From the IMG/VR virus record IMGVR_UViG_3300032265_003467, positions 1 through 20,887 of that record: a stretch of DNA of 20,887 bases. One strand, 5' to 3'. Origin of the DNA: a virus. Of the stretch, positions 1,996 to 16,716 are shown in pieces. Below the pieces are notes generated by a model, which saw nothing but the letters and a program-made list of their open reading frames with translations, had not been told where the DNA came from and made no database searches. Position 1 is the first letter of the stretch. Each line of letters begins with the position of its first letter. The position numbers and the translations under genes were made by a program.

Positions 1996-2025
1996 CTTAA
2001 GGGTGCCGCAATCGGGCGGCAAAAT
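1996..2025 (+). promoter_or_regulatory. Promoter-like element P1 (leaderless type) before scaffold
   Basis: CTTAAGG at 1996-2002, a 17-bp spacer, then CAAAAT at 2020-2025, with an ATG seven bases later at 2033. Four other sites in the window share the heptamer, the exact 17-bp spacing and the position relative to an ATG. The spacer holds a perfect 6-bp inverted repeat, TGCCGC (2004-2009) and GCGGCA (2016-2021), around a 6-base loop. This is the weakest -10-like hexamer of the five. Its sequence is nearly the same as P2. Promoter function is inferred. Confidence 0.55.
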
Positions 2026-2032
2026 TCGACGC

Positions 2033-2104
2033 ATGAGACGTTCCTGCATTTCCGTCGTCCTGGCATTTGCCGGGAAAGATGAAGTGCTGATTCCGGCCTC
2101 TTGA
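2033..2104 (+). CDS. Mini-ORF (23 codons) at the predicted P1 transcript start
   Basis: A short frame encoding MRRSCISVVLAFAGKDEVLI followed by PAS. Its ATG lies 7 bp after the P1 -10-like hexamer, at the place where the other promoter-like elements put the start of a gene, and its TGA is 16 bp upstream of the scaffold ATG, in a different frame. It has no Shine-Dalgarno site and no recognisable domain. Two readings are open: a leader peptide that loads ribosomes onto the SD-less scaffold gene, or the chance remnant of a gene. A second mini-ORF in the same relation to P3 favours the first, but length alone proves nothing. Confidence 0.35.
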   Translation: MRRSCISVVLAFAGKDEVLIPAS

Positions 2105-2120
2105 GGGCCACAAAAAACTC

Positions 2121-3128
2121 ATGAGCGAAAGCACCCAAGAAACAGCAGCACCCGCACCCGAAGCTGAGGAATCCTTCAGCGACATCCTAGAACATCTGCC
2201 TCCCGAGGTGGCTCAGGCGCTTGGAAAAACAAAATCCAAGACCGAATCTGAGCCCGATCCAACGGATGCACAAGAAGAGGAATCGGAAGCGGTGGAACCT
2301 GAAGAGTCCGAGGATGACAAGTCTGAAGACAAAAAGGATGACGAAGACGAGGAGGAAGCTCCTGAAGGAGAAGAGGACAAGTCTGTTAAGAAGCTTGAAA
2401 AACGGATCGACAAGCTGACCCGCCGTCGCAAAGAGGCCGAAACCGCAGCGGAATCCCTCCGCGCCGAAAACGAAAACCTCAAAGCCGAAGTGGAAAAGCG
2501 CAGTGCGATCAAATTGGAGCCGACTGCAGAAGACCCTTTTGCCGACATGGACAGCCCTGAAGATCTGGAAATCAAGGTATCAGCGGCCAAGAAAGTCCGC
2601 GCCTGGGCCTTGCAAAATCCCGACGGCGCCACGGTGACCAACCCGGACGGTACGGAGCGCTATGTGGATCGGGCCGAGATTGCCCGGTACGTCGCCCAGA
2701 CTGATTCCCTCCTCACCGACCACGCCCCGGCTCGAAGGGAATACCTTCGCCAGCGTGAGGCCATCCTTCCGGAAGCCAAGTCAACCTACCCCGAACTCTT
2801 CAAAACAGGTTCCGCCGAGCACAAAGTGCTCGTTGACACCCTCAAGCAGGTTCCGGCGCTCAAGCGCTTGCCCGGCTACGAAATGGTGATCGGCGATGCC
2901 ATGCTCGGAATGAGTGTCCGCCTAGAGCGGGCCAAGCTGGCTGAATCCAAAGGTTCCGACGCAAAGAAATCAGCACCTCCTGCAACCAGGAAAGTGATCG
3001 CACCCGCGATTCCCAAATCCTCGGCCAGCAGGCCACCAGCCGCCTCAACCAAAGGGAAATCCAACCGCTTTGACCGTGTGGTCACTGGCGGATCCGTGGA
3101 TGACCTCGCGGCCTACTTTGGCGGTTAA
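2121..3128 (+). CDS. Capsid scaffolding protein
   Basis: Likely scaffold: it co-assembles with the capsid protein to set the shape of the procapsid and leaves before or during DNA packaging. The 335 residues show the expected build: an N-terminal disordered Ala/Pro region, a very acidic Glu/Asp tract at about residues 45-92, a heptad-like charged coiled coil at about 93-130 (KKLEKRIDKLTRRRKEAET), a folded helical middle, a basic Ser/Pro/Ala-rich linker near 285-315, and a compact C-terminal end (NRFDRVVTGGSVDDLAAYFGG). Basic C-terminal ends bind capsid protein in known scaffolds. Its place directly before the major capsid gene supports the call. The start is the first in-frame ATG after the 2033-2104 mini-ORF; the leader GGCCACAAAAAACTC is A-rich and lacks a Shine-Dalgarno site. 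A protease fusion was considered, but no catalytic motif is visible. Confidence 0.8.
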   Translation: MSESTQETAAPAPEAEESFSDILEHLPPEVAQALGKTKSKTESEPDPTDAQEEESEAVEPEESEDDKSEDKKDDEDEEEAPEGEEDKSVKKLEKRIDKLTRRRKEAETAAESLRAENENLKAEVEKRSAIKLEPTAEDPFADMDSPEDLEIKVSAAKKVRAWALQNPDGATVTNPDGTERYVDRAEIARYVAQTDSLLTDHAPARREYLRQREAILPEAKSTYPELFKTGSAEHKVLVDTLKQVPALKRLPGYEMVIGDAMLGMSVRLERAKLAESKGSDAKKSAPPATRKVIAPAIPKSSASRPPAASTKGKSNRFDRVVTGGSVDDLAAYFGG

Positions 3129-3158
3129 TCCAACTCAAACACTCAAAACACCAAAATT

Positions 3159-4175
3159 ATGGCAGCTACAAGCTATCTCAATTCGATCGGTAAGAGGGAA
3201 GACCTCTCCGACATCATCGCCGTCGTCGACGCCAAGGAAACCGTCCTGACGTCCTCCATCAAGAAAGGATCCAAAAAGCCAACCAACGCCTACGTTGAGT
3301 GGCTCGTTGATTCCTATCCTTCCACCAGCACTTCCGGAACCGTTGACGGAACCGAAGTTGCTTACACGGATGCAGCCGACTTTGCGTCGACTCGCTACCG
3401 CATCGGCAACTACATCCAGCAGTTCCGTCGGGTCCCCGGCGTCAGCCGCCTGGAGGAAACCGTCGCCACCGTCGCCGGTATCAACAACCCTGATCCCCAG
3501 GGTGTGGCTGGAGCCACGGAATTCGCGAGGGCCAAAGCAAAAGCCGTCGTAATGGTCAAGAGAGACATCGAGGCTACCTGCCTCAGCGCCAACGGCGCGG
3601 TTGCAGGAACAGGATCGGTCGCTTACAAGACCCGTGGTCTTGGTCAGTGGCTCTCTGCTTCGGCTGATTCCGTTGCCCTTGGTCAGTCCAACGTGTTGCT
3701 CTCGAGCAGCCAGATCTACTCTGGCAACCTGAGTGCTTTCACCGAGGATTCCCTCCGTGGCGTGCTTCAGCAGCGCTGGAGCGTGACGGGCAAGGGTGGC
3801 GATCTTCTCGCCATTGTTGGTAGCGACATCAAGAATTCGGTTTCCGATTTCTCGCGCTACCTCCCCAGCAAGACCAGCAACACCCCTGTGCGTTTCTACA
3901 ATCAGGACGTGAACAGCAAGATGGTCAGCTCCGTTGTGGACATCTACAGCGGCGACTACGGCAACCTGGAGCTTCACCTGAGCGCCTTCCTGCCAACCAC
4001 CCGCACGGGATACATCATCGATCCCGAGTTTGCGGAACTCCGCACCCACACCGCCCCGTACTTTACCGAGCTCCCTGACCTCGGTGCCGGACGTCGCGGC
4101 ATCGTGGAGGCCATCGTGGCATTGGTTCCGACCAACCCACAGGCCCACGCCAAGATCGACGCGGCCAACGCTTAA
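3159..4175 (+). CDS. Major capsid protein, SU10/DUF5309-like
   Basis: Likely major capsid protein, the HK97-fold subunit of the icosahedral shell. At 338 residues it has the usual size. It resembles the SU10-like family (DUF5309) in overall pattern: an N-terminal LSDIIAVVDAKETVLTSSI segment, then a stretch with VEWLVDSY near residue 47, a region with NYIQQFRRVPGVSRLEETV that matches the common 'N-x-x-Q...V-x-V-S-x-T' stretch, an AKAKAVVMVKRDIEATCL long-helix segment, and a beta-rich C-terminal half (SSVVDIYSGDYGNLELHLSA) typical of the P-domain strands. It follows the scaffold by 30 bases, an A/C-rich leader without a Shine-Dalgarno sequence, and is followed by a strong hairpin. The family assignment is from memory of the pattern, not an alignment; the role as capsid protein is well supported by context. 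Confidence 0.86.
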   Translation: MAATSYLNSIGKREDLSDIIAVVDAKETVLTSSIKKGSKKPTNAYVEWLVDSYPSTSTSGTVDGTEVAYTDAADFASTRYRIGNYIQQFRRVPGVSRLEETVATVAGINNPDPQGVAGATEFARAKAKAVVMVKRDIEATCLSANGAVAGTGSVAYKTRGLGQWLSASADSVALGQSNVLLSSSQIYSGNLSAFTEDSLRGVLQQRWSVTGKGGDLLAIVGSDIKNSVSDFSRYLPSKTSNTPVRFYNQDVNSKMVSSVVDIYSGDYGNLELHLSAFLPTTRTGYIIDPEFAELRTHTAPYFTELPDLGAGRRGIVEAIVALVPTNPQAHAKIDAANA

Positions 4176-4191
4176 TTCGATTCGTGGTACA

Positions 4192-4219
4192 CAGCGTCCG
4201 GGGGTAACCCCGGGCGCTG
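4192..4219 (+). terminator. Strong 12-bp hairpin with GTAA loop after the capsid gene
   Basis: CAGCGTCCGGGG... pairs with ...CCCCGGGCGCTG across 4192-4203 and 4208-4219: twelve pairs including one G-T wobble, closed by the four-base loop GTAA, which as RNA is a stable GNRA-type tetraloop. It begins 17 bases after the capsid stop codon. The following bases (CAATTACGATT) are not a T-tract, so it is not a classical rho-independent terminator. It may act as an attenuator, an RNA processing site or a 3' end stabiliser for the highly expressed capsid message. The structure is clear; the function is inferred. Confidence 0.65.
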
Positions 4220-4236
4220 CAATTACGATTCACTTT

Positions 4237-4728
4237 ATGTCACTTGTAGCACCTATCGAAGCCAGCTCGGCCGTCCTTGATGAATTTCGCAAGGGATTCA
4301 AACACCACGCCGTATCAGCCGCGCTGCGCCAGGAAAAAGTAAATGCTTACTCGCGCCAATTGGAAAACTCCTCCCGGCTCATGGATGGGATCGGGCAGCT
4401 CAAATACCGGATCGATGCCGATCTCTACCACCACATGAAAGCCATTTTCGGGCCCGATTGCTGGAAAGATCCTGCTTTTACCGATGCCTTGGAGCGCGAC
4501 GGGGTCATTCAACGGGTCAAAGGCATTTCCGACAAAATCATGTCGTTTGCACCGTCCGAAAAGGCTGAAGGCCAAAGGCTAGAAGCTAAAAAGGAAGATA
4601 CAAAAACCATCATCGCAGAACACACGTTTTCAGAAACCGAACTGCCTGCGCCATCAACGGATGGAGTCATCGATGGCACTGAAATCTCACCCGCTCTCGA
4701 CCCCATCCCCTCGCCACTTGACAGCTAA
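4237..4728 (+). CDS. Conserved head-proximal phage protein of unknown function
   Basis: 163-residue protein. The same frame is open further upstream, to an ATG at 4030 inside the capsid gene, but the start at 4237 is chosen because it begins after the hairpin and avoids a 140-bp overlap with the capsid gene. The central part, GIGQLKYRIDADLYHHMKAIFGPDCWKDPAF and the following residues (about 48-100), resembles a family often found next to capsid or connector genes in podovirus-like phages (pattern: G-x-x-K-x-R-I-x-x-x-x-Y-H ... C-W-x-D-x-x-F); its function is not known to me. The C-terminal 55 residues are acidic, Pro/Ser-rich and probably disordered. Residues coded by 4560-4591 derive from a heptamer repeat that also occurs at 8191-8222. 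The TAA overlaps the next ATG (TAATG). Confidence 0.78.
   Translation: MSLVAPIEASSAVLDEFRKGFKHHAVSAALRQEKVNAYSRQLENSSRLMDGIGQLKYRIDADLYHHMKAIFGPDCWKDPAFTDALERDGVIQRVKGISDKIMSFAPSEKAEGQRLEAKKEDTKTIIAEHTFSETELPAPSTDGVIDGTEISPALDPIPSPLDS
4560..4591 (+). repeat. Heptamer repeat block inside a coding gene
   Basis: About four units of AAAGGCT-like heptamers (AAAGGCT, GAAGGCC, AAAGGCT, AGAAGCT, then AAAA). The first 22 bases are identical to 8191-8212, and 30 of 32 bases match over the whole block. Here it is translated in frame as part of EKAEGQRLEAKK. The other copy lies outside any gene. Confidence 0.75.
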
Positions 4729-5519
4729 TGCGTACCGTTACCTTCAAAAGTGTCATTGACGGGGCCTTGGCCCGCATGGGTCTGGATTCCACAATTTCGC
4801 CAGCCAGCAACACGTTGGCCGCTTTTACCGAGTATGCCAACTCGGCCCTTCGAGCAGCGCAGGAAATGTACCCGTGGCCTGATTTTGTGCGGTTTGAAAA
4901 TCGTCAGTTTTATGCCAACTGGAGCGCTTCCGCTACCTATGCAATTAACGATGTCGTTTTGGGAAGCGATGGGAATTACTACTATGCCGTCGCCGCTGGC
5001 AGTGGCACCGATCCGACTACCGATTCCACGGATGTCCAATGGAAATTTGCCAGTGCCTACACGTCCACCACCGGCAGCGGGATCCTTTATGCCATTGGTC
5101 TTGATCAGGTACTTGGAAGCACCACGCAAACACCCATTGGCGAAGTGTTGGGTGTTTGGGAAAGCGACCCGCGCACGAACCGATACTCCACGCCGATTAA
5201 CTGGTTCCTGACCAATGATGGGATTGTGGTCGGTCAAAATGGCCTATCGGTTACCTCCATTCCCGCAACGGTTTGGATTGAGTTTTCCGCACGGCCAACC
5301 GTGTATACGACCAGCAGTTACACCAATAACGACACGTTTCCCTATGTCCTAGCTGAAGCCGTGAAATATGCAATTTGTGCCGAGGCGCAGCGCGAAGATG
5401 GGCAATTTGACAAAGCCAGTGCTCATGATGCCAATGCCACCGCCGCGCTGAATACCGAATGGGACAAACTTGAAATGAAACAACAGCAGATGGGCCGATT
5501 CCGTGCCCTAGTGCGCTAA
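4728..5519 (+). CDS. Head-tail connector / tail tubular A-like protein with a carbohydrate-binding-like insert
   Basis: Likely adaptor joining portal to tail (the role of T7 gp11 or P22 gp4-like proteins). Of 263 residues, the N-terminal helix region (SVIDGALARMGLD, about 8-20, then NTLAAFTEYANSALRAAQEMYPW, 28-50) and the C-terminal helical part (FPYVLAEAVKYAICAEAQ and a charged coil at the end) match the usual head-tail adaptor layout: helices at both ends, beta in the middle. Residues about 65-107 (W65, Y71, NDVV at 74-77, G82-N-Y-Y-Y, DPTTDS, W105) look like a small carbohydrate-binding module of the CBM5/12 or related type inserted between them. The gene overlaps the previous stop by one base (TAATG). 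The connector role is inferred from order and helical pattern. Confidence 0.72.
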   Translation: MRTVTFKSVIDGALARMGLDSTISPASNTLAAFTEYANSALRAAQEMYPWPDFVRFENRQFYANWSASATYAINDVVLGSDGNYYYAVAAGSGTDPTTDSTDVQWKFASAYTSTTGSGILYAIGLDQVLGSTTQTPIGEVLGVWESDPRTNRYSTPINWFLTNDGIVVGQNGLSVTSIPATVWIEFSARPTVYTTSSYTNNDTFPYVLAEAVKYAICAEAQREDGQFDKASAHDANATAALNTEWDKLEMKQQQMGRFRALVR

Positions 5520-5532
5520 CACCAACACAACC

Positions 5533-5889
5533 ATGGCCGATGTCATTATAGGAAAGACCGATGCCGGAGCGAAGCTTCCGGTCAATGTCGATACCCGGGG
5601 CCGTTTGGTCATTTCTGGCACGGTTTCTTCCATTGGAAATGTCGAAACCATTCTCAATACCCAGACCGCGATTGAAACGGCTATGGCTGCCGATTTGGCG
5701 CTGACTAAGTCCAGTGCAGCTTCCATTGCCGGGATGGCCATCCCTGCCAATGATTACATGGCGCTCAATTATACGGGATCCAATCTGACCAGCATCGTCT
5801 ACAAGTCGGGAGGGGCCAGTGGAACAACCGTTGCAACCCTGACGCTGGCCTATAGCGGAAGCAATCTCGTGAGCGTCACCAAATCGTAG
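5533..5889 (+). CDS. Small virion-associated protein, unknown
   Basis: 118 residues. The N-terminal part (MADVIIGKTDAGAKLPVNVD) and C-terminal part (IPANDYMALNYTGSNLTSIV, then YSGSNLVSVTKS) are beta-rich, with a short Ala-rich helix between them (about 45-62). The C-terminal half, with its repeated Y-x-G-S-N-L motif, resembles short proteins or domains often seen among phage tail and baseplate genes. It lies between the connector and a fibre, so a structural or fibre-attachment role is likely but not shown. The leader CACCAACACAACC before the ATG is A/C-rich, unstructured and lacks a Shine-Dalgarno sequence. No signal peptide or membrane segment. Confidence 0.72.
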   Translation: MADVIIGKTDAGAKLPVNVDTRGRLVISGTVSSIGNVETILNTQTAIETAMAADLALTKSSAASIAGMAIPANDYMALNYTGSNLTSIVYKSGGASGTTVATLTLAYSGSNLVSVTKS

Positions 5890-5892
5890 GTC

Positions 5893-7308
5893 ATGCCTTG
5901 GACGTTTAATCCATTTACCGGGAAACTCGATCAGACCGCCGCAAGCGGTGGTGGTGGAGGAAACCCTTTTGATCAATCGCTCAATACGACCGACAACCCA
6001 ACATTTCCTGTTGTTAGTATTAATGATGGATCGGATGGAACCGGGTATATTTCACCTGCAGGAGTTTTTGGACAAACCGATAACGGCCATGCTAGTCACT
6101 GGTATTTAAGCAAAAATTCCGTTTCTTTTGATAATGGAGACGATTCGGGTCCAGCAACGTCCCTCGTCCACGGATCCATCAACTACACTCCAGACGTTTC
6201 TGTTTCGACAACTCCAATAGTTTTTACATTTCCATCTTCTACAGGAACCTTGGCACTTACAACAGATCTTCCGGATCAGTCGCTGAATATGGCTGATGGT
6301 CCATTATTTAATGCGCTAACTATTGATACATACATACAATACTCTCCAACAAACGGATCGGCTGTACCTGTAGCAAAGGGAATAACATATTTTGATACTG
6401 TTAATAACAGCTTCTACGGATACGTCACCGGGCTTTCTACGGGTTTGCGAAAGTTCACCATGGGGGATGCGAGTGATTTGACTAGCGGAACCCTAAATGC
6501 AGCACGACTTCCATCCACGGCGGTAACGACCACAGGAACACAAACCCTTACCAACAAAAGCATTTCTTCGGGTCAAATTACGGGTTTGGCTGCGGTAGCA
6601 ACCAGCGCATCAGCAGCCGATCTCTCCACCGGCACGCTTCCCGATGCGAGGCTATCAAGCAACGTCTTGCTACTTACCGGGGCGCAAACAATTACCGGAA
6701 CCAAGACCATTACTCCGGCCGCAGGATCTTCGGCGCTCATTGCATCCAATGTAACGCACACGACCTCGGCGCCAATCCTTGATCTCACTCAGACTTGGAA
6801 TGCCTCAGCCGTAGCATTTTCGGCAATCAAACTTTCAGTCACCAATACCGCATCGGCTACGGCCTCAGCGCTGCTCGATCTTTCCGTTGGTGGTACAAGC
6901 CAATTTCATGTAACCCCTGCAAAACAAATCCGGCTTTTTAACAGCAGAACAGATGCATCCAACTATGAGTGCGGCGTCTTAGATTGGACGACCAATACCA
7001 ATGCACTGACGATTGGAACGCAAAAGGCCGGAACGGGTACGGCTCGTCGTGTACGACTCAATTCGGCCGAAAACATCGATTACTACATTTCGGATTCCAG
7101 TCGTGTATTCCAAATGGCGTCAAACGGAAACACCAGTTTTTCCCCATTAACATGGCAGTATTACTCAGGCGCAGGGGATCCCACGACCAGCAACACGCCG
7201 TGGAACAACGGAGCAAGCTATTGTGCACTTTGGCGCAATACGACGACCGGCGTGGTCAAGCTCTGGGTCAACAATGCCGGAACCATGGTCTCCGTCGCCC
7301 TTTCATAA
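5893..7308 (+). CDS. Tail fibre protein
   Basis: 471-residue likely tail fibre or receptor-binding protein. The N-terminus MPWTFNPFTGKLDQ is a recurring phage attachment segment, followed by a run of five glycines (residues 19-23). The body is Thr/Ser/Asn/Gly-rich and beta-prone, with repeated fibre motifs: QSLNTTDNPTF (about 28) and QSLNMADGPLF (about 128), TGTQTLTNKSISSGQITGL near 213, and LLTGAQTITGTKTIT near 256. These are typical of trimeric fibre shafts. The C-terminal region (NTPWNNGASYCALWRNTTTG, then LWVNNAG) is a compact beta tip. There is no visible enzymatic motif. Bases of roughly 5990-6430 are more AT-rich than neighbouring genes, as expected of exchangeable fibre modules. The ATG is three bases after the previous stop. 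Confidence 0.82.
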   Translation: MPWTFNPFTGKLDQTAASGGGGGNPFDQSLNTTDNPTFPVVSINDGSDGTGYISPAGVFGQTDNGHASHWYLSKNSVSFDNGDDSGPATSLVHGSINYTPDVSVSTTPIVFTFPSSTGTLALTTDLPDQSLNMADGPLFNALTIDTYIQYSPTNGSAVPVAKGITYFDTVNNSFYGYVTGLSTGLRKFTMGDASDLTSGTLNAARLPSTAVTTTGTQTLTNKSISSGQITGLAAVATSASAADLSTGTLPDARLSSNVLLLTGAQTITGTKTITPAAGSSALIASNVTHTTSAPILDLTQTWNASAVAFSAIKLSVTNTASATASALLDLSVGGTSQFHVTPAKQIRLFNSRTDASNYECGVLDWTTNTNALTIGTQKAGTGTARRVRLNSAENIDYYISDSSRVFQMASNGNTSFSPLTWQYYSGAGDPTTSNTPWNNGASYCALWRNTTTGVVKLWVNNAGTMVSVALS

Positions 7309-7312
7309 TTTT

Positions 7313-7486
7313 ATGACACCAGAACAAGCGCTCCAAGTCCTATCCGATGCCACCGATCCCGCCGCCGCATACGGAAAACTTTCCCGGTCGGGATTTGCCG
7401 CCGTAGAACAAGCACTCAAAGTGCTCGCACAACTCATCCCAACCCAAGACAAAAACCATGGATCTGACGCTGACCTTCACTCCTGA
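7313..7486 (+). CDS. Small helical phage protein (57 aa), unknown
   Basis: The frame is open further upstream, but the start at 7313 (four bases after the fibre stop) avoids overlap and gives MTPEQALQVLSDATDPAAAY..., a sequence type I associate with many small phage proteins: a helix with 'TPEQALQVL', a short linker, and a second helix (AAVEQALKVLAQLI). It has no known function. The C-terminus is polar (QDKNHGSDADLHS). It overlaps the next small gene by 29 bases in another frame. A tail or lysis accessory role can only be guessed from position. Confidence 0.65.
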   Translation: MTPEQALQVLSDATDPAAAYGKLSRSGFAAVEQALKVLAQLIPTQDKNHGSDADLHS

Positions 7487-7622
7487 GCAATTCCGAGCCA
7501 TTGGTGCCGCTCGGGCCGAGCACAATACTGCTGCGGAAATACCAATTTCCTCCGACCAGGAATATGTAACTTGGGTCATCCTAGCGGCGGCCGATTCTTG
7601 GGGGCAGCTTTATCCTGCATGA
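7458..7622 (+). CDS. Small protein (54 aa), unknown
   Basis: A short frame beginning MDLTLTFTPEQFRAIGAARA and ending WGQLYPA. The start at 7458 lies inside the end of the previous small gene, and the TGA overlaps the next ATG (ATGA at 7619-7622), which argues for a real, translationally coupled gene despite the length. The sequence TFTPEQFRAI...ARAEHN, followed by EYVTWVILAAADSW, resembles short helical proteins found in phage structural regions. It has no membrane segment or catalytic motif that I can recognise. Confidence 0.6.
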   Translation: MDLTLTFTPEQFRAIGAARAEHNTAAEIPISSDQEYVTWVILAAADSWGQLYPA

Positions 7623-7834
7623 TCCAAGATCTGCGGCTTTTTCTCAAAGCCTACCCGGTGGCCAAATCCCGGGTGTTGGCTGCGCATGACACGCACTACC
7701 CAGGGTGTGTGCGCACCCAGCTTGCTTACCACGAAACTCGCACGGAACTGACCCGTCGTGGACTTGCCGATAACGACATCACCGGAGCGGTCATCTATAT
7801 TGCCGTTGGATTTGCCTACCTTTTGAATCGATGA
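7619..7834 (+). CDS. Small basic protein (71 aa), unknown
   Basis: 71 residues starting at the ATG of an ATGA overlap with the previous gene; an upstream in-frame ATG at 7571 would overlap that gene by 52 bases and is less likely. The protein is mixed alpha: MIQDLRLFLKAYPVAKSR, then HDTHYPGCVRTQLAYHETRTELTRRGL, then a hydrophobic C-terminal stretch AVIYIAVGFAYLLNR that could be a short membrane-associated helix. Several His residues and one Cys are present but not in a known metal motif. The function is unknown. It is the last gene of the unit that ends before promoter-like element P2. Confidence 0.65.
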   Translation: MIQDLRLFLKAYPVAKSRVLAAHDTHYPGCVRTQLAYHETRTELTRRGLADNDITGAVIYIAVGFAYLLNR

Positions 7835-7870
7835 AAGATACCCGGCCAATTTTGGATTTTTAGAATCTCG

Positions 7871-7900
7871 CTTAAGGGTGCCCCAATCGGGCCTTAAGAT
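7871..7900 (+). promoter_or_regulatory. Promoter-like element P2 (leaderless type) before the lysis block
   Basis: CTTAAGG at 7871-7877, a 17-bp spacer, TAAGAT at 7895-7900, and an ATG six bases later at 7907. From 7870 to the ATG it is close to a copy of P1: 22 of 23 bases agree in 7870-7892 compared with 1995-2017, and both end in CG(A/T)CGCATGA. CTTAAGG (7871-7877) and CCTTAAG (7892-7898) form an inverted repeat with three further C-G pairs inside, so the element is also a dyad that could be an operator. Function is inferred from pattern. Confidence 0.62.
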
Positions 7901-7906
7901 CGTCGC

Positions 7907-8185: not shown

Positions 8186-8190
8186 TTGGG

Positions 8191-8222
8191 AAAGGCTGAA
8201 GGCCAAAGGCTAAAGGCTAAAA
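8191..8222 (+). repeat. Heptamer tandem repeat between genes
   Basis: Four AAAGGCT-type heptamers (AAAGGCT, GAAGGCC, AAAGGCT, AAAGGCT, then AAAA) fill nearly the whole 40-base gap between two genes. The block matches 4560-4591 at 30 of 32 bases. Short tandem heptamers of this kind are known in some bacterial genomes (for example the STRR repeats of cyanobacteria). I cannot place this unit in a named family. Confidence 0.75.
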
Positions 8223-8225
8223 CCC

Positions 8226-8456
8226 ATGAGTGCTGATGAAGTAAGCGCGCTGCGGGAAGACATTGCCGAGCTGCGTGCAATCATCCAAGAACGTCAAGCC
8301 AACAGCTTGCGCAACGGAAAGTTCCTGCATGGCATCGCGGCCGCCGTCGCCATTCAGTTGGTTTTTACCGTCTTCTATGCAGGGGCCAAGACGGCCCTCC
8401 TCGACCGGCTCATGACCGATGTCCATGACATTCAGCGCAAGCTCGAATCCCGATGA
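8226..8456 (+). CDS. Coiled-coil membrane protein, lysis cassette (76 aa)
   Basis: 76 residues: a charged N-terminal helix (about 3-28, ADEVSALREDIAELRAIIQE) with heptad character, one hydrophobic segment (about 33-53, LHGIAAAVAIQLVFTVFYAGA) and a charged C-terminal helix (DVHDIQRKLESR). The coil-membrane-coil layout recalls small holin partners or XhlA-like proteins. It opens a run of four or five genes joined by ATGA overlaps, the fourth of which is an endolysin, so a role in lysis (holin, antiholin or regulator) is likely. The exact job cannot be told from the sequence. The ATG is four bases after the heptamer repeat and lacks a Shine-Dalgarno site. Confidence 0.68.
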   Translation: MSADEVSALREDIAELRAIIQERQANSLRNGKFLHGIAAAVAIQLVFTVFYAGAKTALLDRLMTDVHDIQRKLESR

Positions 8457-9031
8457 GACTTTTCCTTTTGTCAATTTTGGGATTGATGACCGGATGTGCC
8501 GCCCAGCACAAAGCGCCAACGGTTTTCACGCCTCCAGCAGTCTCCGGGGTGGCCGCGCCGGTTCAACGCACCCGCGTCGAAGTCACAACGGCCGTGGCCG
8601 ACTTAGACAAACTTGCACCCCATGTCACCGAAGCTGGCCGCGCGCAGCTTGTGGCGCTTAAGGAATCTCTCAAATCGGCACAATCTGCCAGTGTGGAGGC
8701 CCAGGAAGGACTCATCATCTACGCCACTCAGGTTGATGCACAAACACGCGCCCTCAATGAGGCCATCTCGGATCGAAACAAAGCCATTGGTCTTGCCGAA
8801 CAATACCATGCGCAAGCTCACAACAATGCTCAGGAACGTGACGTGATCCTGATTTTGTTTGCGGTGATCGCGTCATTTTGGATTGGCACCCTGTTTGCAG
8901 GAGAAATTTTGCGCAATTTTCCAGCGCCTTGGTCATTTGTTGCGGCCGGTCTTCTCTATGTGGCTGTTGCCATCGGGGCTTACGCTCTGGGGCGACTTAT
9001 CCTTCATGCGGCATCCCGCTTAATCCCATGA
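8453..9031 (+). CDS. Lysis-cassette lipoprotein with coiled coil and two C-terminal membrane segments
   Basis: 192 residues. The N-terminus MRLFLLSILGLMTGCAAQ looks like a lipoprotein signal with the lipid-bearing Cys at 15. A periplasmic-type, Ala/Gln/Glu-rich region follows, helical and coiled-coil-prone at about 45-125 (ARAQLVALKESLKSAQSASV and onward). Then come two hydrophobic segments near 130-150 and 158-182. A lipoprotein next to a holin and endolysin suggests a spanin-like function (disrupting the outer membrane of a Gram-negative host), but typical outer spanins are short and lack C-terminal membrane segments, so this would be an unusual architecture. The lipobox has Met at -3, which is not ideal. 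ATGA overlaps join it to both neighbours. A TTAAGG promoter-like match lies inside the gene at 8657-8686. Confidence 0.7.
   Translation: MRLFLLSILGLMTGCAAQHKAPTVFTPPAVSGVAAPVQRTRVEVTTAVADLDKLAPHVTEAGRAQLVALKESLKSAQSASVEAQEGLIIYATQVDAQTRALNEAISDRNKAIGLAEQYHAQAHNNAQERDVILILFAVIASFWIGTLFAGEILRNFPAPWSFVAAGLLYVAVAIGAYALGRLILHAASRLIP
8657..8686 (+). promoter_or_regulatory. Possible internal promoter-like match within the lipoprotein gene
   Basis: CTTAAGG at 8657-8663, 17 bp, CAATCT at 8681-8686, then six bases to a GTG at 8693 that is in frame with the surrounding gene (codon 81). The geometry equals that of P1-P5. If active it would give a leaderless message for a 112-residue product lacking the lipoprotein signal but keeping both membrane segments. 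It may be chance: the site is in coding sequence and the -10-like hexamer is weak. Confidence 0.25.
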
Positions 9032-10807: not shown

Positions 10808-10815
10808 CCATTCCC

Positions 10816-12939
10816 ATGCCCGCCCAACTTGCTTCACCGGTCGTACGAGACGGCGACACGGCTTTTATCGGACTTCAGTCCCGAAGAAATCCCATTACAA
10901 TCAAAGAGGGCTATCTCCAGCTTTCACAAAATATGCGGCTGGATCGCGGAATAGCCCAGACCCGCAAAGGAGCCATGCGGCTTGCTTCGGGAATTTCTGT
11001 AGGGTCGACTGCAGTGACTGTTCCCTTTGTGCTACACGGCGGAGACCCCGTCACTTCTATCACGCAATCGGGCAATGTGGCCACCGTCACTACCTCTTCA
11101 AATCATGGCCTTGGATCAGTCAATAGCCAATTTTATGTTGAAATCGCTGGCGTCACCGGAGCCACGGCCAGCGCCTACAATGGGAAATTCACGGTAACCG
11201 TCACTGGAAATAATACATTCACCTATCCGGTCACTGGGTCCCCCGCTACCAACCCTCCTGGAACCATCACTTGGGCATGGCCGGTCCTGCTCACCAATTA
11301 CTCAGGAGGCATTTTTGGTGCCGGTGTCTACTCATCGCCACGCTACGACTATTCCAACGAGTATATCGTGCTCTGTGGTCCAAGCAGCGCCTACCTCTAT
11401 CGGCAGGGATCCTCGCTACTGACCCTCTCCTATCCGGTCTCACCGATCACCGAGCAAATCCTACCGGGCGATATCGTCAATACCATGCAAGCTTTTGATC
11501 GTCTTTTCCTTTTCCGATGGCGGTCCTCCGAGCTAATGCAGAAGGTGGCTTCAATCACCCAGGCCAGTGGTACGGCAACGGTGACGACCGCTGCGGCCCA
11601 TGGATTTGCCACCGGAGAGGTGGTGCGACTTTCCGGTAGCGATCAAGCGGGGTATAACCTCGATGCCCTTATTGCCACCGTTCCTTCGGCCACGACATTC
11701 ACGGTGTCAGTACCAGTAGGAACTGCTGCCAACACCTCCACCTCGCTTTTTGCCCAACGGGTCTGCTGTCCTCTTGTCTGGAATGGGTCAACGTCTGGCT
11801 TTGCGGGTTCTTTCTCAAGGGTCTCTACTGGAACCTCCCCGCTCGGCCCGTCCTACTCCCGAATGGTCTCCCCAACTAACGGAATCGCGGCCTACTACAA
11901 CAACCAAGTCGTACTTTGTAACGGCCGTGACACGCTCCTTGTCTCCGACGTACTCGATCCGGATACCTACGACCCCATGCTCAAGGGGTTTCGCACCAAC
12001 ACGGGATCCAATGATTACCTTGTTGCGCTTCACCCGTACGCGGATCGGCAGATTGTTGCATTTCTCAGAAAGTCGATCTACTTGGCCAAACTTGTGATTG
12101 CGGCTGATGGGGTATCTGTGGATCCAAACAATAGCCGACTGGAGCTCTTGACAAGTGAAGTCGGGTGCTCGGCTCGAATGACTATTGCCACCGCCGGAAA
12201 CTACATTTACTTCCTCGCCGATCAGGGCCTCTATCGCCTCGATAACTCGCAGATCGATTTGGCGCTGCGCGGCAATACACTTCCACTATCCGAGCCGGTC
12301 GCCGATCTTTTTGCATCAATCAATCAGGACGCAGTTGCAACGGCGAATGCCGTATATTTTTGCAACCGTTATTACCTTGCCGTCCCAACGGGTAATGCTA
12401 CGACTCCGAATACCCTAATCATCTACAACCAGCTCAATGAATCCTGGGAAAGCGTGGATACTAATTTGCCAGCCCTCGACCGTCTCGTGGTCAGCGACTA
12501 TGGAACGAGCCGAAGACTCTTTGCGGCATCAACCTCGGGCGCTCTTTTCCTACTAGAGGAATATGATTCGTCCAATGACGATACCGGGGCGGGAACCGCG
12601 CAGGCATCTGTCAACGGGGTCATCACGACCCGCAGATATTTTTATGGCCAGCTTTCCCGCAAGCGCCTGGGTAATGTGGCTGTATCCACATACCTCCCAT
12701 CAGACAGCTCTGTCGATGTGGCAGCCGTCACGACGGACCCGGACAACACGACCCACATTGCCACGGTCACCAATCCTGATGATGACAACGATTTCACAAT
12801 CAGGGCGCCGATCCGCAGGCCCGGCACTTACCTAGACCTAACCATTACCACTAGCGGCGGGCGTCCAACAATCCGTGCTGTATCGGCCGACGCCACCCTC
12901 CCCGCTGATACCAGCAGATTGGCCCGTACCGAGTCATAG
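10816..12939 (+). CDS. Tail nozzle / tail tubular B-like protein (707 aa)
   Basis: Likely the large tail tube or nozzle protein of a podovirus-like tail (compare T7 gp12 or P22 gp10). The N-terminal pattern (FIGLQSRRNPITIKEGYLQL, then NMRLDRGIAQTRKG at about 39-52) is common in this class, where it lists an ordered first segment of a beta-propeller. Two copies of a small beta module are inserted at about 79-143 (TSITQSGNVATVTTSSNHGL) and 244-302 (ASITQASGTATVTTAAAHGF), each with H-G-[LF] and a Y-N core. The later region has propeller-like strands: IAAYYNNQVVLCNGRD, YADRQIVAFLRKSIYLAKLV, GCSARMTIATAGNYIYFLAD, QGLYRLDNSQ. No enzymatic motif is visible. The leader before the ATG is eight bases and lacks a Shine-Dalgarno site. 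Confidence 0.78.
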   Translation: MPAQLASPVVRDGDTAFIGLQSRRNPITIKEGYLQLSQNMRLDRGIAQTRKGAMRLASGISVGSTAVTVPFVLHGGDPVTSITQSGNVATVTTSSNHGLGSVNSQFYVEIAGVTGATASAYNGKFTVTVTGNNTFTYPVTGSPATNPPGTITWAWPVLLTNYSGGIFGAGVYSSPRYDYSNEYIVLCGPSSAYLYRQGSSLLTLSYPVSPITEQILPGDIVNTMQAFDRLFLFRWRSSELMQKVASITQASGTATVTTAAAHGFATGEVVRLSGSDQAGYNLDALIATVPSATTFTVSVPVGTAANTSTSLFAQRVCCPLVWNGSTSGFAGSFSRVSTGTSPLGPSYSRMVSPTNGIAAYYNNQVVLCNGRDTLLVSDVLDPDTYDPMLKGFRTNTGSNDYLVALHPYADRQIVAFLRKSIYLAKLVIAADGVSVDPNNSRLELLTSEVGCSARMTIATAGNYIYFLADQGLYRLDNSQIDLALRGNTLPLSEPVADLFASINQDAVATANAVYFCNRYYLAVPTGNATTPNTLIIYNQLNESWESVDTNLPALDRLVVSDYGTSRRLFAASTSGALFLLEEYDSSNDDTGAGTAQASVNGVITTRRYFYGQLSRKRLGNVAVSTYLPSDSSVDVAAVTTDPDNTTHIATVTNPDDDNDFTIRAPIRRPGTYLDLTITTSGGRPTIRAVSADATLPADTSRLARTES

Positions 12940-12946
12940 GAAACTA

Positions 12947-12976
12947 CTTAAGGGCCACCCAACCAGAAACTACTCT
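12947..12976 (+). promoter_or_regulatory. Promoter-like element P3 (leaderless type)
   Basis: CTTAAGG at 12947-12953, a 17-bp spacer, TACTCT at 12971-12976, and an ATG six bases later at 12983. It lies in the 78-base gap after the nozzle gene. GAAACTACT occurs twice, at 12940-12948 and 12966-12974, overlapping the -35-like and -10-like parts, which may be an operator or chance. The ATG opens a ten-codon frame rather than the annotated gene. Confidence 0.6.
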
Positions 12977-12982
12977 CTCCTC

Positions 12983-13015
12983 ATGGGTACCCGACCACTA
13001 TTTAGACTTTCCTAA
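12983..13015 (+). other. Ten-codon mini-ORF at the predicted P3 transcript start
   Basis: ATG at 12983 with the frame MGTRPLFRLS and TAA at 13013-13015, two bases before the ATG of the next gene. The ATG lies exactly where a leaderless P3 transcript would start. It parallels the 23-codon frame after P1. It may act as a ribosome-loading mini-cistron for the SD-less downstream gene; at this length coding potential cannot be judged from the sequence. Confidence 0.3.
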
Positions 13016-13017
13016 GC

Positions 13018-13359
13018 ATGGCAACCGTCACCTCTGGATATACCTTTGTTAATAACGATACGGTAACTCCGGCCAAACTAAACAGCCTGGCAGGCAGCGC
13101 GACTGTCACTCAGATCGTGAATTCCGACATCAATTCTGCGGCTGCCATAGCAGATACCAAGCTGGCCACAATCTCGACGGCAGGAAAAGTTAGCGGTACA
13201 GCCATCACCTCTGGAAACATTTCTACCTCTGGAAACATTTCTACCTCTGGAAACATTTCTGCTTCTGGAAACATTTCCACCAGCGGCTACATCACCGCTG
13301 CATCGCTCTCCGGTGGTGCACTGGCTCAAGTCGCGCAATACGCCCTTGTTTTAGGTTAA
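13018..13359 (+). CDS. Small fibre-like protein with TSGNIS repeats
   Basis: 113 residues, Thr/Ser/Ala/Gly-rich. The N-terminal segment SGYTFVNNDTVTPAKLNSLAG, then VNSDINSAAAIADTKLATIS, is a recurring start of short phage tail fibre or decoration proteins. Residues 64-93 consist of five six-residue units, TSGNIS (three times), ASGNIS and TSGYIT, which would form a small beta-helix or triple-stranded shaft. The coding DNA of the first three units is identical, indicating a recent expansion or slippage. The C-terminus is hydrophobic (ALAQVAQYALVLG). There are no charged catalytic motifs. The ATG follows the TAA of a ten-codon frame by two bases. Confidence 0.72.
   Translation: MATVTSGYTFVNNDTVTPAKLNSLAGSATVTQIVNSDINSAAAIADTKLATISTAGKVSGTAITSGNISTSGNISTSGNISASGNISTSGYITAASLSGGALAQVAQYALVLG
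13207..13296 (+). repeat. 18-bp in-frame tandem repeat
   Basis: Three identical 18-bp units (ACCTCTGGAAACATTTCT) at 13207-13260, a fourth with three changes (13261-13278) and a diverged fifth (13279-13296). Each codes a TSGNIS-type hexapeptide. Because the unit is a multiple of three, copy number can change without shifting the frame. Confidence 0.92.
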
Positions 13360-13371
13360 TCTTTTACACTC

Positions 13372-14040
13372 ATGAAATCCGTCCTTACATCCTCCGCCTC
13401 GCCGACCTTCACTCCAGGTGCTGCAAATGCTGGAACGCTCAACTTTGCCTCGGCCGTCTCTTCCTACGGTTTCCAGTTCGGCAGACTGCTCGGAATCATT
13501 AACCTGACTCAGAACAACATCATTTACACGGCTGGAGTCAGCGGGTATGGAGGAACATGGAACAGCGGAACAAGCGTCCTGACATTGGCTCAATCCACGA
13601 TCGGGATGAATTCTTCCGATGTCCTCGAAGTCATCTGGGATGATCCGTCGCCAGAGATTCAGATTGTCCCACCGTCATTAACTACGCCATCATGTCTCTC
13701 TTTTCAGCTAATATCTGCAGCAGGGACTAATGCTACAGTTGTTAAAGCATCCCCTGGGATTATTAATGCTATATACTTTTCCGGTGCCACCGGTGGCAGT
13801 CAGTTTTTGAAGTTTTATGATACGGCGACCGCACCTATTGTTGGAACAACTACTGTAAAGCTGACATTTGCCGCTGTCACAAACGGTGCCAACTATAATG
13901 GAATGGTCTCGGTCTTTGTTCCTCCTCATGGAATAAAGTTTTCAAATGGCATTTCAATTGCAATCACTGGTGCAATTGCAAATTCGGACACGACTGCAAT
14001 CACAGCTAACACCTGCGTGGTCAACGTTCTATACGTTTAA
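13372..14040 (+). CDS. Virion structural protein, fibre or decoration type (222 aa)
   Basis: 222 residues in two visible parts. The N-terminal part (about 1-100) has SASPTFTPGAANAGTLNFAS and a Gly/Tyr-rich beta stretch ending VIWDDPSPEIQIVPPS. The C-terminal part (about 110-222: SAAGTNATVVKASPGIINAI, FLKFYDTATAPIVGTTTVKL, FVPPHGIKFSNGISIAITG) matches a domain often seen as a small phage structural protein or fibre tip ('A-x-T-x-N-A-T-x-V-K...L-K-x-Y-x-x-A-x-A-P-x-V-G-x-x-x-P-x...G-I-x-F-x-x-G-I'). The DNA changes from GC-rich to AT-rich near 13690, close to the boundary between these parts, as would follow domain exchange. Precise placement in the virion is unknown. Confidence 0.72.
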   Translation: MKSVLTSSASPTFTPGAANAGTLNFASAVSSYGFQFGRLLGIINLTQNNIIYTAGVSGYGGTWNSGTSVLTLAQSTIGMNSSDVLEVIWDDPSPEIQIVPPSLTTPSCLSFQLISAAGTNATVVKASPGIINAIYFSGATGGSQFLKFYDTATAPIVGTTTVKLTFAAVTNGANYNGMVSVFVPPHGIKFSNGISIAITGAIANSDTTAITANTCVVNVLYV

Positions 14041-14403
14041 ATGTTTGCATGGGAAATTGCATACCAATGGCAACAGGAAAATTCTATAACTCCATTTGAA
14101 GAAATTCTTGGGTGGCATTTTTCGTCTGGTATTGTCCATTCAACCCCTTCGGTTTTTATATTGGCCCACGAGGTGACGTGGGATGCGTGTTCTAGGAAAA
14201 TAATAAAAGGAACTCCCAATGCTTGGTTTGTCGAATTAGCGGCGTCGGCGTGCCACGCAACAGCGGTTCATGAATTTTTTAAAATCGCGCCTCACCCCCA
14301 TCAATGGGCCCTCTGGTGCAGACAATCCCAAGGCCGAAAACATGACATCCATGATTACCGATGGGAAAAACTGGCAAAGCGGTTAAGGTTGCATCCCGCT
14401 TAA
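14041..14403 (+). CDS. Unrecognised protein (120 aa) between fibre and ejection genes
   Basis: 120 residues starting on the base after the previous stop (TAAATG). I do not recognise a family. The sequence is rich in Trp, His and Phe (WEIAYQWQQENSITPFEEIL, HEVTWDACSRK, HEFFKIAPHPHQWALWC, HDIHDYRWEKLAKRL) and unlike the Ser/Thr/Gly-rich structural proteins around it, so it is more likely a globular soluble protein than a fibre. The His/Cys content might bind metal but no standard motif is present. Base composition is lower in GC than neighbours. The TAA at 14401-14403 lies within the CTTAAGG of P4. A second TTAAGGTTGC lies 17 bases upstream, within its last codons. Confidence 0.65.
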   Translation: MFAWEIAYQWQQENSITPFEEILGWHFSSGIVHSTPSVFILAHEVTWDACSRKIIKGTPNAWFVELAASACHATAVHEFFKIAPHPHQWALWCRQSQGRKHDIHDYRWEKLAKRLRLHPA

Positions 14404-14428
14404 GGTTGCTACTTCGCCGCTTTATTAT
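14399..14428 (+). promoter_or_regulatory. Promoter-like element P4 (leaderless type) before first ejection gene
   Basis: CTTAAGG at 14399-14405, a 17-bp spacer, TATTAT at 14423-14428 (the best -10-like hexamer of the set), and ATG at 14437, eight bases later. The element overlaps the stop codon of the upstream gene. GTTAAGGTTGC at 14382-14392 duplicates the -35-like part 17 bp upstream (CTTAAGGTTGC at 14399-14409) but has no matching -10 at the proper distance. Confidence 0.65.
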
Positions 14429-14436
14429 TTGTTTCT

Positions 14437-15432
14437 ATGGGAGGATCATCAGGAGGAAAACAACCGGTTCCGCAGCCAGCTCAGCCGCTTGACTACGGTC
14501 AACTTATGGCTGCCGCCTCTGCTCAGGCAAGGGCATCGGTCGATCAGCAATTTGCTGACCAGGTCAAATATTATCCCCAGATGGAATCGCTCCAACTGGG
14601 AACAGTTGGAAAAATTGGAAGCAATCTTAATAACGATTACACAAAGCAGGCCAAAGGGATCATTGACCAGACTTTACAACAGGGTGCTACCCAACTTGCC
14701 GATACTGGAAACCGGATTAATGCTTTAGGAGATCTCTCCGGCGCCATGGCTGCACAAGCTCAACAGCGTGCGCTTGGTGGCCCAACATCGATTGAGCAAG
14801 GCCTGTACGATCGTGCCAACTCGGATCTTGCCCTTGGTAGCCAGCTTAGCCCGGAGGAAGAGCGCATGGCATCTCAGCAGGCCACCGCCGCATGGGCCTC
14901 CCGTGGCCTTGGTACTGGTGCCTCAGCCGGTGCTGCTGACCTTCTTAATCGCTACCAATACGGACAGGCCCGACTCCAACAACGTCTCGGGAATGCACAG
15001 GCAGCCAACCAAACCATGGAACAAGGCATCCAAGGCCGCCAAACAACGGCACAGGGCCTTCTTGGAAACACGGCCAACCTCTATGGTCAAGCCGGTGGCG
15101 CTTATCAGAATGCAGCCTCCCTTGGTTTTGGTGGGGCCAATGCCCTAGTCAATCTAGATCCTTACCAGCGGGCTCTTGGAACCGGCGTCCAACTTGGTAG
15201 CGGCATCTTGGCAAACAACGGACAGATGATTGGCAATGCCTACAACCAAGCCCAGCAGATGGCCGGAAACGTGGCGTCATTTAACGCCAATATGCTGGAT
15301 ACTCGGTACAATTCGGCACTCAACAATAATGCGGCCATTTCTGGTGCCAATAGTGCTGCCAATGGGCAGATGCTGGGTGCAGGCATAGGTGCTATTGGAT
15401 CGATCGGAATGGGTGCGGCCATTGCCATCTAG
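14437..15432 (+). CDS. Internal virion / DNA-ejection protein A (331 aa)
   Basis: Likely a small ejection protein of the type that leaves the virion with the DNA and helps form a conduit across the cell envelope (compare T7 gp14, P22 gp7). Seen: a disordered Gly/Pro start (GGSSGGKQPVPQPAQP), long Ala/Gln/Asn-rich helices (for example QARASVDQQFADQVKYYPQM; LLNRYQYGQARLQQRLGNAQ), very few charged clusters, and a hydrophobic Gly/Ala/Ile C-terminal segment (MLGAGIGAIGSIGMGAAIAI) suitable for membrane insertion. Its place before two further helical and one giant protein fits the ejection-gene order of podoviruses. The GGGAGGA at its start codon is inside the gene, not a Shine-Dalgarno site. The TAG overlaps the next start (TAGTG). 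Confidence 0.75.
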   Translation: MGGSSGGKQPVPQPAQPLDYGQLMAAASAQARASVDQQFADQVKYYPQMESLQLGTVGKIGSNLNNDYTKQAKGIIDQTLQQGATQLADTGNRINALGDLSGAMAAQAQQRALGGPTSIEQGLYDRANSDLALGSQLSPEEERMASQQATAAWASRGLGTGASAGAADLLNRYQYGQARLQQRLGNAQAANQTMEQGIQGRQTTAQGLLGNTANLYGQAGGAYQNAASLGFGGANALVNLDPYQRALGTGVQLGSGILANNGQMIGNAYNQAQQMAGNVASFNANMLDTRYNSALNNNAAISGANSAANGQMLGAGIGAIGSIGMGAAIAI

Positions 15433-16265
15433 TGTTTGAATTGATCCAACGGTCTGTTGATCGGATCAAATGCTGGCACACGCGCTGGCCTAAATCGGCT
15501 ATCTTGTGGAGCGGTGGCAAAGATAGCACGGCCCTTTTGCACCTTTTAAAATACTACGCGCATCTCGACCTTCCGGTCGTGCAATACCGTGAACCAAAAT
15601 TCCGCGAACGCTACGAATACTCTGACCGCCTGATCAAGGAATGGAACCTTGAGGTCTACGAGTACCCGGCTGCACGCCATGCCCTAGCCGACGGGCCCGA
15701 TGTGATTACCGGGGAAATGCGCTTTGACCTGCTGAAATTCCAACAATGGGGCGAGCGCAGCCTGATCCTTTCCCTGGGCACAGAGCGACCAAAGGGAGAA
15801 GAAAAGTATCTTTGCGGCGTGGATTTTCTAGAACGCCCCACGGGTACGTTTAATTGGCCATGGGAAGCGGTCTACCTCGGCACCAAGGGAATTGACTCCG
15901 ATCCGATCAAAGGGGATGTGCCACTTGCCATCGATGTCCGCCATGCACCCGGTTCTCCCTGGGGACTCTACCCGCTGCGCGATTGGAACGATGCCGACAT
16001 TTACAATTACCTCGAGCGTCACGAGGTCATGCCGGATCCCAACCGCTACGAGAAAATCGATGGGGTCTGGGGGCACAAGGCCGACAAGTCCATGAATGCC
16101 GATTACATTCCGACGTGCCTGAATTGCGTCGACCGCCATGCGGGACCCTATGTGGAATGCCCAAAGTTCAAATCCACGGTAAGCAATATCTCCCACCTGG
16201 CAACCTACGAGGACGTGGTCTTCCCGGATCTCGGATTTCGTCCTGTGTGGAAGGAATCGAATTAA
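15432..16265 (+). CDS. PAPS reductase-like (adenine nucleotide alpha hydrolase) enzyme
   Basis: 277-residue member of the phosphoadenylylsulfate reductase / ATP-PPase superfamily. SGGKDS at 27-32 is the PP-loop that binds the phosphates of the nucleotide, following a hydrophobic strand (AILW). YPLRDWNDADIYNYLERHEV (about 187-206) matches the C-terminal region of the PAPS reductase domain. The canonical reductase ECG(I/L)H motif is absent; instead there is C-x2-C at 229-232 and a further Cys at 243, which may bind metal or act in redox. So the substrate may not be PAPS: nucleic acid or nucleotide modification by sulfur transfer is an alternative. It lies between ejection-protein genes. The start is GTG, overlapping the previous TAG by one base. 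The TAA is within promoter-like P5. Confidence 0.83.
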   Translation: MFELIQRSVDRIKCWHTRWPKSAILWSGGKDSTALLHLLKYYAHLDLPVVQYREPKFRERYEYSDRLIKEWNLEVYEYPAARHALADGPDVITGEMRFDLLKFQQWGERSLILSLGTERPKGEEKYLCGVDFLERPTGTFNWPWEAVYLGTKGIDSDPIKGDVPLAIDVRHAPGSPWGLYPLRDWNDADIYNYLERHEVMPDPNRYEKIDGVWGHKADKSMNADYIPTCLNCVDRHAGPYVECPKFKSTVSNISHLATYEDVVFPDLGFRPVWKESN

Positions 16266-16290
16266 GGGTGGCGTTTAAGAAAGGTATTCT
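16261..16290 (+). promoter_or_regulatory. Promoter-like element P5 (leaderless type)
   Basis: ATTAAGG at 16261-16267, a 17-bp spacer, TATTCT at 16285-16290, and ATG at 16297, six bases later. It overlaps the TAA of the PAPS reductase-like gene. It differs from the other four in having A at the first position of the heptamer. Confidence 0.6.
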
Positions 16291-16296
16291 CTTTGC

Positions 16297-16716
16297 ATGT
16301 TCGGCTACGCACCTCAAGTCACCGATCGCTCCGGCGAACTCCAAGCCGCCGGTCAACTCAAAGGCGCCGAGGGCATCGCCTCCGGCATTCAATCCGTTGG
16401 CCAAAGTATTGGTGGTGCATTAGAGACGATGGGCAAATACAAGATGGCCGCCGATCAAGCGGATGCCACGGCTGGGATTGCTCAAAAGATGGGTTTGTTT
16501 AATTCCCAAAATGATCCCGATGGCAGTCAGGCGCTGGCCATGATTAAAGCAACACCCTGGCAGCAAAAAGTTTCCCTTGGTCCATCACTTGTTCAACTGG
16601 CAGGACAGCAAGCCATGATGGGTTACCACAATGCCATGCTTGGAATATCTCAACAAAAAGCTGATCAAGCGGGCGCAAATTCTGCAACAAAGAACGAGCC
16701 GGTTTCTTTGTATTAA
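16297..16716 (+). CDS. Internal virion / ejection protein B (139 aa)
   Basis: 139 residues, predicted by eye to be nearly all helical with a Gly/Ala/Gln bias (GQLKGAEGIASGIQSVGQSI; QADATAGIAQKMGLFNSQND; QQAMMGYHNAMLGISQQKAD). There are no membrane segments of full length and no catalytic motif. Located between the first and third ejection-type genes, it is best read as a small internal virion protein. A tail or scaffold-like role cannot be excluded. The ATG is at the expected leaderless position after P5 and the next gene starts three bases after its stop. Confidence 0.66.
   Translation: MFGYAPQVTDRSGELQAAGQLKGAEGIASGIQSVGQSIGGALETMGKYKMAADQADATAGIAQKMGLFNSQNDPDGSQALAMIKATPWQQKVSLGPSLVQLAGQQAMMGYHNAMLGISQQKADQAGANSATKNEPVSLY

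Follow-up and report, generated by a model that had tools for sequence, protein, structure and literature searches.

A candidate late-promoter family with its own -35-region element, placed for AUG-initial transcripts, in a clade of uncultured phages

The middle and late transcripts of the Thermus phage phiYS40 are leaderless. In Deinococcus-Thermus and Actinobacteria there is ample documentation of leaderless transcription from a -10 motif that adjoins the ORF (PMC12340547, PMC3160421, PMC4633059); in the former group, the '-10 adjacent to ORF' promoters have a TANNNT motif a few base pairs before the ORF and leaderless transcription was shown experimentally (PMC12340547). Leaderless short ORFs with translational coupling are found upstream of genes in mycobacteria (PMC4633059), and synthetic leaderless bicistronic cassettes with a 5'-AUG fore-cistron exist for Corynebacterium (PMC10367133). 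In the Thermus phage P23-45, the gp39 protein blocks sigma region 4 and -35 use, host polymerase reads the late promoters, and the middle and late promoters belong to the extended -10 class (PMC7403470). At the middle promoters of T4, the box of a phage factor replaces the -35 and the sigma-70 -10 is kept (PMC7403470).

The elements described here come from a clade of uncultured phages with almost no annotated genes. To judge from their sequence, they look like a new set, a late-phage promoter family that has its own -35-region element and is placed for AUG-initial late transcripts; a literature search found no paper on this -35 element. The likeness to P23-45 is that of late phage promoters read by host polymerase together with a phage factor, as we propose for the present set, but the P23-45 promoters are of the extended -10 type whereas the present set has a strong and conserved element of 14 bp in its -35 region. 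The architecture that we propose is the same as that of the T4 middle promoters (AsiA/MotA), with a box of another sequence and no recognised homologue of AsiA or MotA; T4 middle promoters are not known to give 5'-AUG transcripts. As in Deinococcus-Thermus, there is a TANNNT -10 a few base pairs from an ORF and leaderless transcripts are predicted; however, the Deinococcus-Thermus promoters work largely without a -35, whereas our set is specific to phages and is conserved most of all in its -35-region element. What is shared with the mycobacterial and Corynebacterium cases is that a gene is preceded by a short ORF with a 5' AUG, as predicted for our set. The differences are that the arrangement is repeated here across a phage late regulon, and that the synthetic Corynebacterium design relies on a Shine-Dalgarno (SD) site of the second cistron whereas we see none.

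The window, i.e. the whole stretch of DNA analysed, is the 20,887-base virus record IMGVR_UViG_3300032265_003467 and covers the phage late region. The first gene in it (2-1693) corresponds to the C-terminal part of a portal-like protein, for which the full gene in relatives encodes about 725-740 amino acids. The features on which the analysis bears are the following.

1991-2025, + strand: predicted late promoter S1; upstream CCC, -35 TTAAGG at 1997-2002, 17 bp, -10 CAAAAT at 2020-2025; score 22.5
2033-2104, + strand: 23-codon leader ORF with a predicted 5' AUG (MRRSCISVVLAFAGKDEVLIPAS), separated by 16 nt from the scaffold gene; a 23-25-codon ORF is found in all relatives
2046-2109, + strand: covarying leader hairpins, 2046-2052/2081-2087, 2058-2064/2070-2076 and 2095-2099/2105-2109
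2121-3128, + strand: scaffold gene (phrog_2932, E 6.5e-4)
3159-4175, + strand: SU10-type major capsid gene (PF17236, E 8.5e-46), after the scaffold gene
7867-7900, + strand: predicted late promoter S2; -35 TTAAGG at 7872-7877, -10 TAAGAT at 7895-7900; score 20.3
12943-12976, + strand: predicted late promoter S3; -35 TTAAGG at 12948-12953, -10 TACTCT at 12971-12976; score 22.5
12983-13015, + strand: 5'-AUG mini-ORF after S3, 10 codons plus stop, ending 2 nt before the gene at 13018
14395-14428, + strand: predicted late promoter S4; -35 TTAAGG at 14400-14405, -10 TATTAT at 14423-14428; score 26.1
16257-16290, + strand: predicted late promoter S5; -35 TTAAGG at 16262-16267, -10 TATTCT at 16285-16290; score 15.8

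The five sites had been picked by eye in a sequence-only reading of the window, which took them for a leaderless phage promoter family. Their sequences are exactly as that reading gave them, including the 17-bp spacer in all five, the hexamers listed above and the distances from -10 to ATG of 7, 6, 6, 8 and 6 bp. The leaderless part of the proposal holds for three sites, where the ATG is the start of a gene predicted to be leaderless (92 amino acids from 7907 after S2, 331 from 14437 after S4 and 139 from 16297 after S5), but ATG 2033 and ATG 12983 open ORFs of 23 and 10 codons, and the main genes start at 2121 and 13018, respectively. Since two of the five ATGs thus open mini-ORFs and not genes, '5'-AUG transcript' would be a better description than 'leaderless gene'.

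In the window, TTAAGG-N16-18-TANNNT has four matches, where dinucleotide shuffling predicts 0.11, and none of 100 shuffles reaches four; TTAAGG alone is not rare (11 versus 6.1 expected). The looser TTAAGG-N17-NANNNT has six forward and no reverse matches, the sixth (8658) lying within a gene and having no ATG at the right offset. A sixth locus lies just beyond the left end of the window; G012 (IMGVR_UViG_3300010885_027733), which is 99-100% identical to the window's phage, has TTAAGG-17-TATTCT-ATG at the head of the portal gene (3113-3149). The late region has other repeated or unusual features. TTAAGGTTGC is found twice, 17 bp apart, at 14383-14405, giving a second -35-like box at the upstream edge of S4. 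The 113-amino-acid gene at 13018-13359 contains an in-frame 18-bp tandem repeat in about four copies (13207-13281), GGCTAAA-like units are repeated at 4560-4591 and 8191-8222 (32 nt, 94% identical), and similar heptamer-like and GTCGAGGG repeats fill intergenic gaps in relatives. A PAPS-reductase-like gene (PF01507, E 3e-7) lies at 15432-16265, its GTG start overlapping the preceding gene.

A fair test was provided by 14 related viral contigs (59-100% capsid identity) retrieved by a capsid search, none of which had been seen when the five sites were picked. Three of the longest, about 37-39 kb each, have 123-bp terminal repeats and are apparently circular, complete genomes. The clade is probably temperate, to judge from the genes for integrases, RHH/CopG-type repressors, DnaB helicases and primosomal proteins that its members carry. 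Five to six late loci in these 14 records carry the element, for which the consensus is CCnnn-TTAAG[C/G]-17 bp-TAnnCT-6 to 8 bp-ATG. Among the window sites, S1 has a counterpart at the same locus in all relatives, S2 in G001-G004 and L139, S3 in G001-G004, G006, G011 and L139, and S5 in G001, G002 and G006; only for S4 (14400) was no counterpart seen upstream of the orthologous genes. The -35 box had been given as TTAAGG, different from TTGACA. The TTAAG core and the difference stand, but TTAAGG is too narrow: the relatives have TTAAG[C/G] with an upstream CC, and TTAAGC is the commoner form (the last base of the box is C in 25 of 38 sites and G in 13). The two upstream C, 4-5 bp before the box, are each found in 34/38 sites, a T follows the box in 32/38, and the -10 reads TA..CT, with C at hexamer position 5 in 29/38. 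TTAAAG versions are found in G013, the most diverged of these relatives.

The counts in the 15 records agree with what the sequence-only reading had proposed, i.e. a recurrent promoter-like element with a fixed 17-bp spacing, at late genes only and with an ATG at the expected +1, and the pattern is enriched before late genes over control sequence. TTAAG-N17-19-TANNNT-N4-9-ATG has 38 matches, 37 on the late strand, whereas control 5-mers give 0-2 except CTTAA (21), which overlaps the real motif. A.A...T hexamer at a spacing of exactly 17 bp accompanies 47 of the 104 late-strand TTAAG[C/G] sites versus 7 of the 108 opposite-strand ones (Fisher P 5e-11); for an ATG at offsets 35-37 the figures are 38/104 versus 1/108 (P 7e-13). 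Both P values are optimistic, as related sequences are counted. The enrichment recurs at six different loci within genomes, with divergent spacers, and at orthologous sites the spacer sequence diverges and its length is constant at 17. A weight matrix built from the sites finds four to six per larger genome, at the portal, scaffold/capsid and further late loci; of 14 sites, none lies in the early third of the three circular genomes.

That the element is no promoter seems to us very improbable, whether it be taken for an operator or for a repeat cassette that was duplicated and so inherited its spacing by copying. Such copying would account for the 32-nt stretch shared at 88% identity by S1 and S2 of the window, and for the likeness of the S3 and S5 cassettes in G001 and G002, and an operator for the dyad CCACCTTAAGGTGG at some sites; but the spacers are mostly unrelated within one genome and yet the 17-bp spacing, the -10 and the ATG offset are the same, and the orientation strictly follows the late strand. 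A palindromic operator reading of CCACCTTAAGGTGG was dropped, most sites not being palindromic.

The element is also confined to the clade. When 2.9 million viral contigs were scanned with a strict pattern, 16 stretches matched, all within it, three of the contigs having been missed by the capsid search; a second strict pattern gave two matches in viral contigs, both in the clade. In relatives at ≤45% capsid identity the element is absent, and the starts at the places read are Shine-Dalgarno-like. This confinement favours a phage-specific factor.

The ATG accompanies 39 of the 50 unique matches to the element; G006 22387, G008 10194, G010 22837, G011 17436 and L057 10376 lack it and are otherwise good sites, which speaks against our main explanation. 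In the window it is the gene start at three sites (7907, 14437 and 16297); the same holds for all portal loci (37 nt), the S2 site of G004 and several other loci in relatives. Where it is not the gene start it is nevertheless kept, and opens mini-ORFs of 3 to 24 codons. Outside the capsid leader, 12 of 12 mini-ORFs close before the gene start or overlapping it, versus 6.4 expected by shuffling (P ~4e-4, one related pair being counted once); several close within 4 nt of the gene or overlap its start (TAATG, ATGA), and stops within -4 to +6 of the gene start show a weaker excess (6 versus 2.8 expected). The genes of the window have no excess of Shine-Dalgarno 4-mers (3/19 versus a background of 10%). 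However, some genomes with leader sites have an SD-like gene elsewhere, in the early region, which indicates that the host can use SD sites and again counts against that explanation.

One of these arrangements precedes the scaffold gene. The 86-92 nt between S1 and this gene are conserved in all relatives and can be folded into three helices, with pairing in 93.9% of cells and 12 double-sided changes, versus 5.8 in shuffles. Pairing falls to 37-48% when the structure is slid, a control that leans in favour of the structure, which had itself been obtained from this alignment. The stop codon of the leader ORF lies in the loop of the last hairpin or, in G013, just past it. No Rfam family matches this leader. 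It seems to be conserved as nucleotides rather than as amino acids, so that the encoded peptide as such probably does not matter. Another possibility is that the element is a promoter and the ATG only an initiator preference (CATG at +1) devoid of translational meaning. In its favour, the S1 leader is conserved as RNA, with 'AAGTGCTGA' kept in two different reading frames and codon positions 1 and 2 as variable as position 3, and a few ATG-less sites retain a purine at that place. We nevertheless consider this possibility unlikely. The ATG of the 39 matches is found at 6, 7 or 8 nt past the -10 and not at one fixed distance, which is compatible with start-site choice by a sigma-70 holoenzyme; it is a true gene start at the loci just cited; every mini-ORF closes before the gene start or overlapping it; and in the S1 leader insertions of 1 and 2 nt co-occur in the same four sequences, so that a frame of 23-24 codons is kept.

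As to what reads the element, the phage-encoded sigma factor suggested in the sequence-only reading did not turn up in the relatives searched: there is no Sigma70_r2 match in six records, by a search positive in 10 of 14 controls and which a very divergent sigma could escape. It is likely that the enzyme is host RNA polymerase. A single-subunit RNA polymerase of the phage would fit an extended element of about 40 bp that is specific to a phage clade, and yet we hold it to be highly improbable. T7-type promoters are contiguous; those described here are unlike them, in that two boxes are set apart as for sigma-70, by a 17-bp spacer that diverges in sequence, and the distance to the ATG varies. 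In addition, the scanned proteins have no RNA polymerase family match, the dedicated search being weak, silent also in all control genomes and thus lacking a positive control.

There is perhaps one chance in a handful that the late genes are simply served by the host's own housekeeping promoter, with its usual -35 and -10 and no phage factor. The spacing is indeed classical, the -10 is TAnnnT, no phage sigma was found and many bacteria have -10 motifs beside ORFs for leaderless genes (PMC12340547, PMC3160421). But the genomes lack the element in their early third, although a constitutive host promoter should occur there too, the strict pattern is found in no unrelated viral contig, and TTAAG[C/G] agrees with TTGACA in no more than 3 of the 6 positions, within a -35-region conservation that spans about 14 bp and reaches well upstream of a normal -35. 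Restriction to the clade and late-only use rather point to a phage factor, which may act at the -35 region by analogy with MotA in T4. The candidates for such an activator gave no recognisable DNA-binding fold: among conserved small early proteins, no activator domain was recognised except in an HTH_17 excisionase-like protein, one modelled candidate regulator (pLDDT 70) had no fold match at E≤0.001, and the model of a second was too poor for use.

The host may be Verrucomicrobia-like, a guess that we base on SD-poor starts and intergenic repeats. A search of bacterial genomes with the capsid gave only distant relatives (24-30% identity) and indicated no host, and neither the phage collection nor five genomes contained a match to the integrase. 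The 5' part of a tRNA-Thr(CGT) gene, likely to be attP, adjoins the integrase gene (G002 22400-22660, G006 2320-2580, in window orientation); it was found in 0/392 and 0/82 genomes of two phyla and, with 1-2 mismatches, in 13/398 genomes of Pseudomonadota, matches that we rejected as a pointer to the host since this common tRNA is not diagnostic. Inspection of early promoters revealed no convincing shared early element. A control region beside the RHH/CopG-type repressor gene (G002 24590-25000, G006 4690-5140, G011 290-712, G013 8190-8680, in window orientation) has several copies of a genome-specific palindrome (TCTTTTAAAGA, TCCTTTAAGGA and ATCATTNAATGAT types), probably operators of the lysogeny switch, and the gene that follows has a clear AAAGGAGG-type site.

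We think it rather likely that the elements are late promoters of this integrase-bearing clade, read by host polymerase with a phage or host factor at the -35, and giving 5'-AUG transcripts. The sequence itself shows the element with its spacing and its confinement to late loci and to one strand, the retention of the ATG, the closure of the mini-ORFs and the covariation in the leader; promoter identity, the +1, the mode of translation and the activator we infer. Bacterial RNA polymerase with a sigma-70-type factor would contact the -10 (TAnnCT), and the -35 region (CCnnnTTAAG[C/G]TC, about 14 bp) would be bound most likely by an early-made phage activator or sigma-appropriating factor, or alternatively by a host sigma whose preferred -35 is unusual. 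Transcription would start 7 to 9 nt past the -10, at the A of the ATG or at most 1-2 bases from it, and the terminal or near-terminal 5' AUG would be usable by ribosomes in the absence of a Shine-Dalgarno site. At some loci this AUG would be the gene start; at others it would open a short leader ORF closing just before the gene, to which ribosomes would be delivered by termination-reinitiation, the leader ORF of the scaffold/capsid locus sitting inside a conserved hairpin structure. More tentatively, and with appreciably less confidence, we may extend this to the whole late regulon: a phage-specific -35 element would set the start at the AUG of every late promoter, every late message would take up its ribosomes at the 5' end, and a short leader ORF (inside the hairpin leader at the capsid locus) would pass them to genes further downstream, as a natural genome-wide leaderless bicistronic design.

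The strength of these conclusions is that of sequence statistics within a set of related phages. For a sparsely annotated phage group, they provide a precise annotation rule, TTAAG[C/G]-17-TAnnCT-6..8-ATG. If the proposed explanation is true, a single element would couple promoter recognition, start-site choice and translation initiation throughout the late regulon of phages that have no Shine-Dalgarno sites at their structural genes. It would be a compact, portable module for leaderless expression and an example from nature of leader ORFs, themselves leaderless, that supply the genes after them with ribosomes, and would give a handle on the timing of late genes in these uncultured phages.
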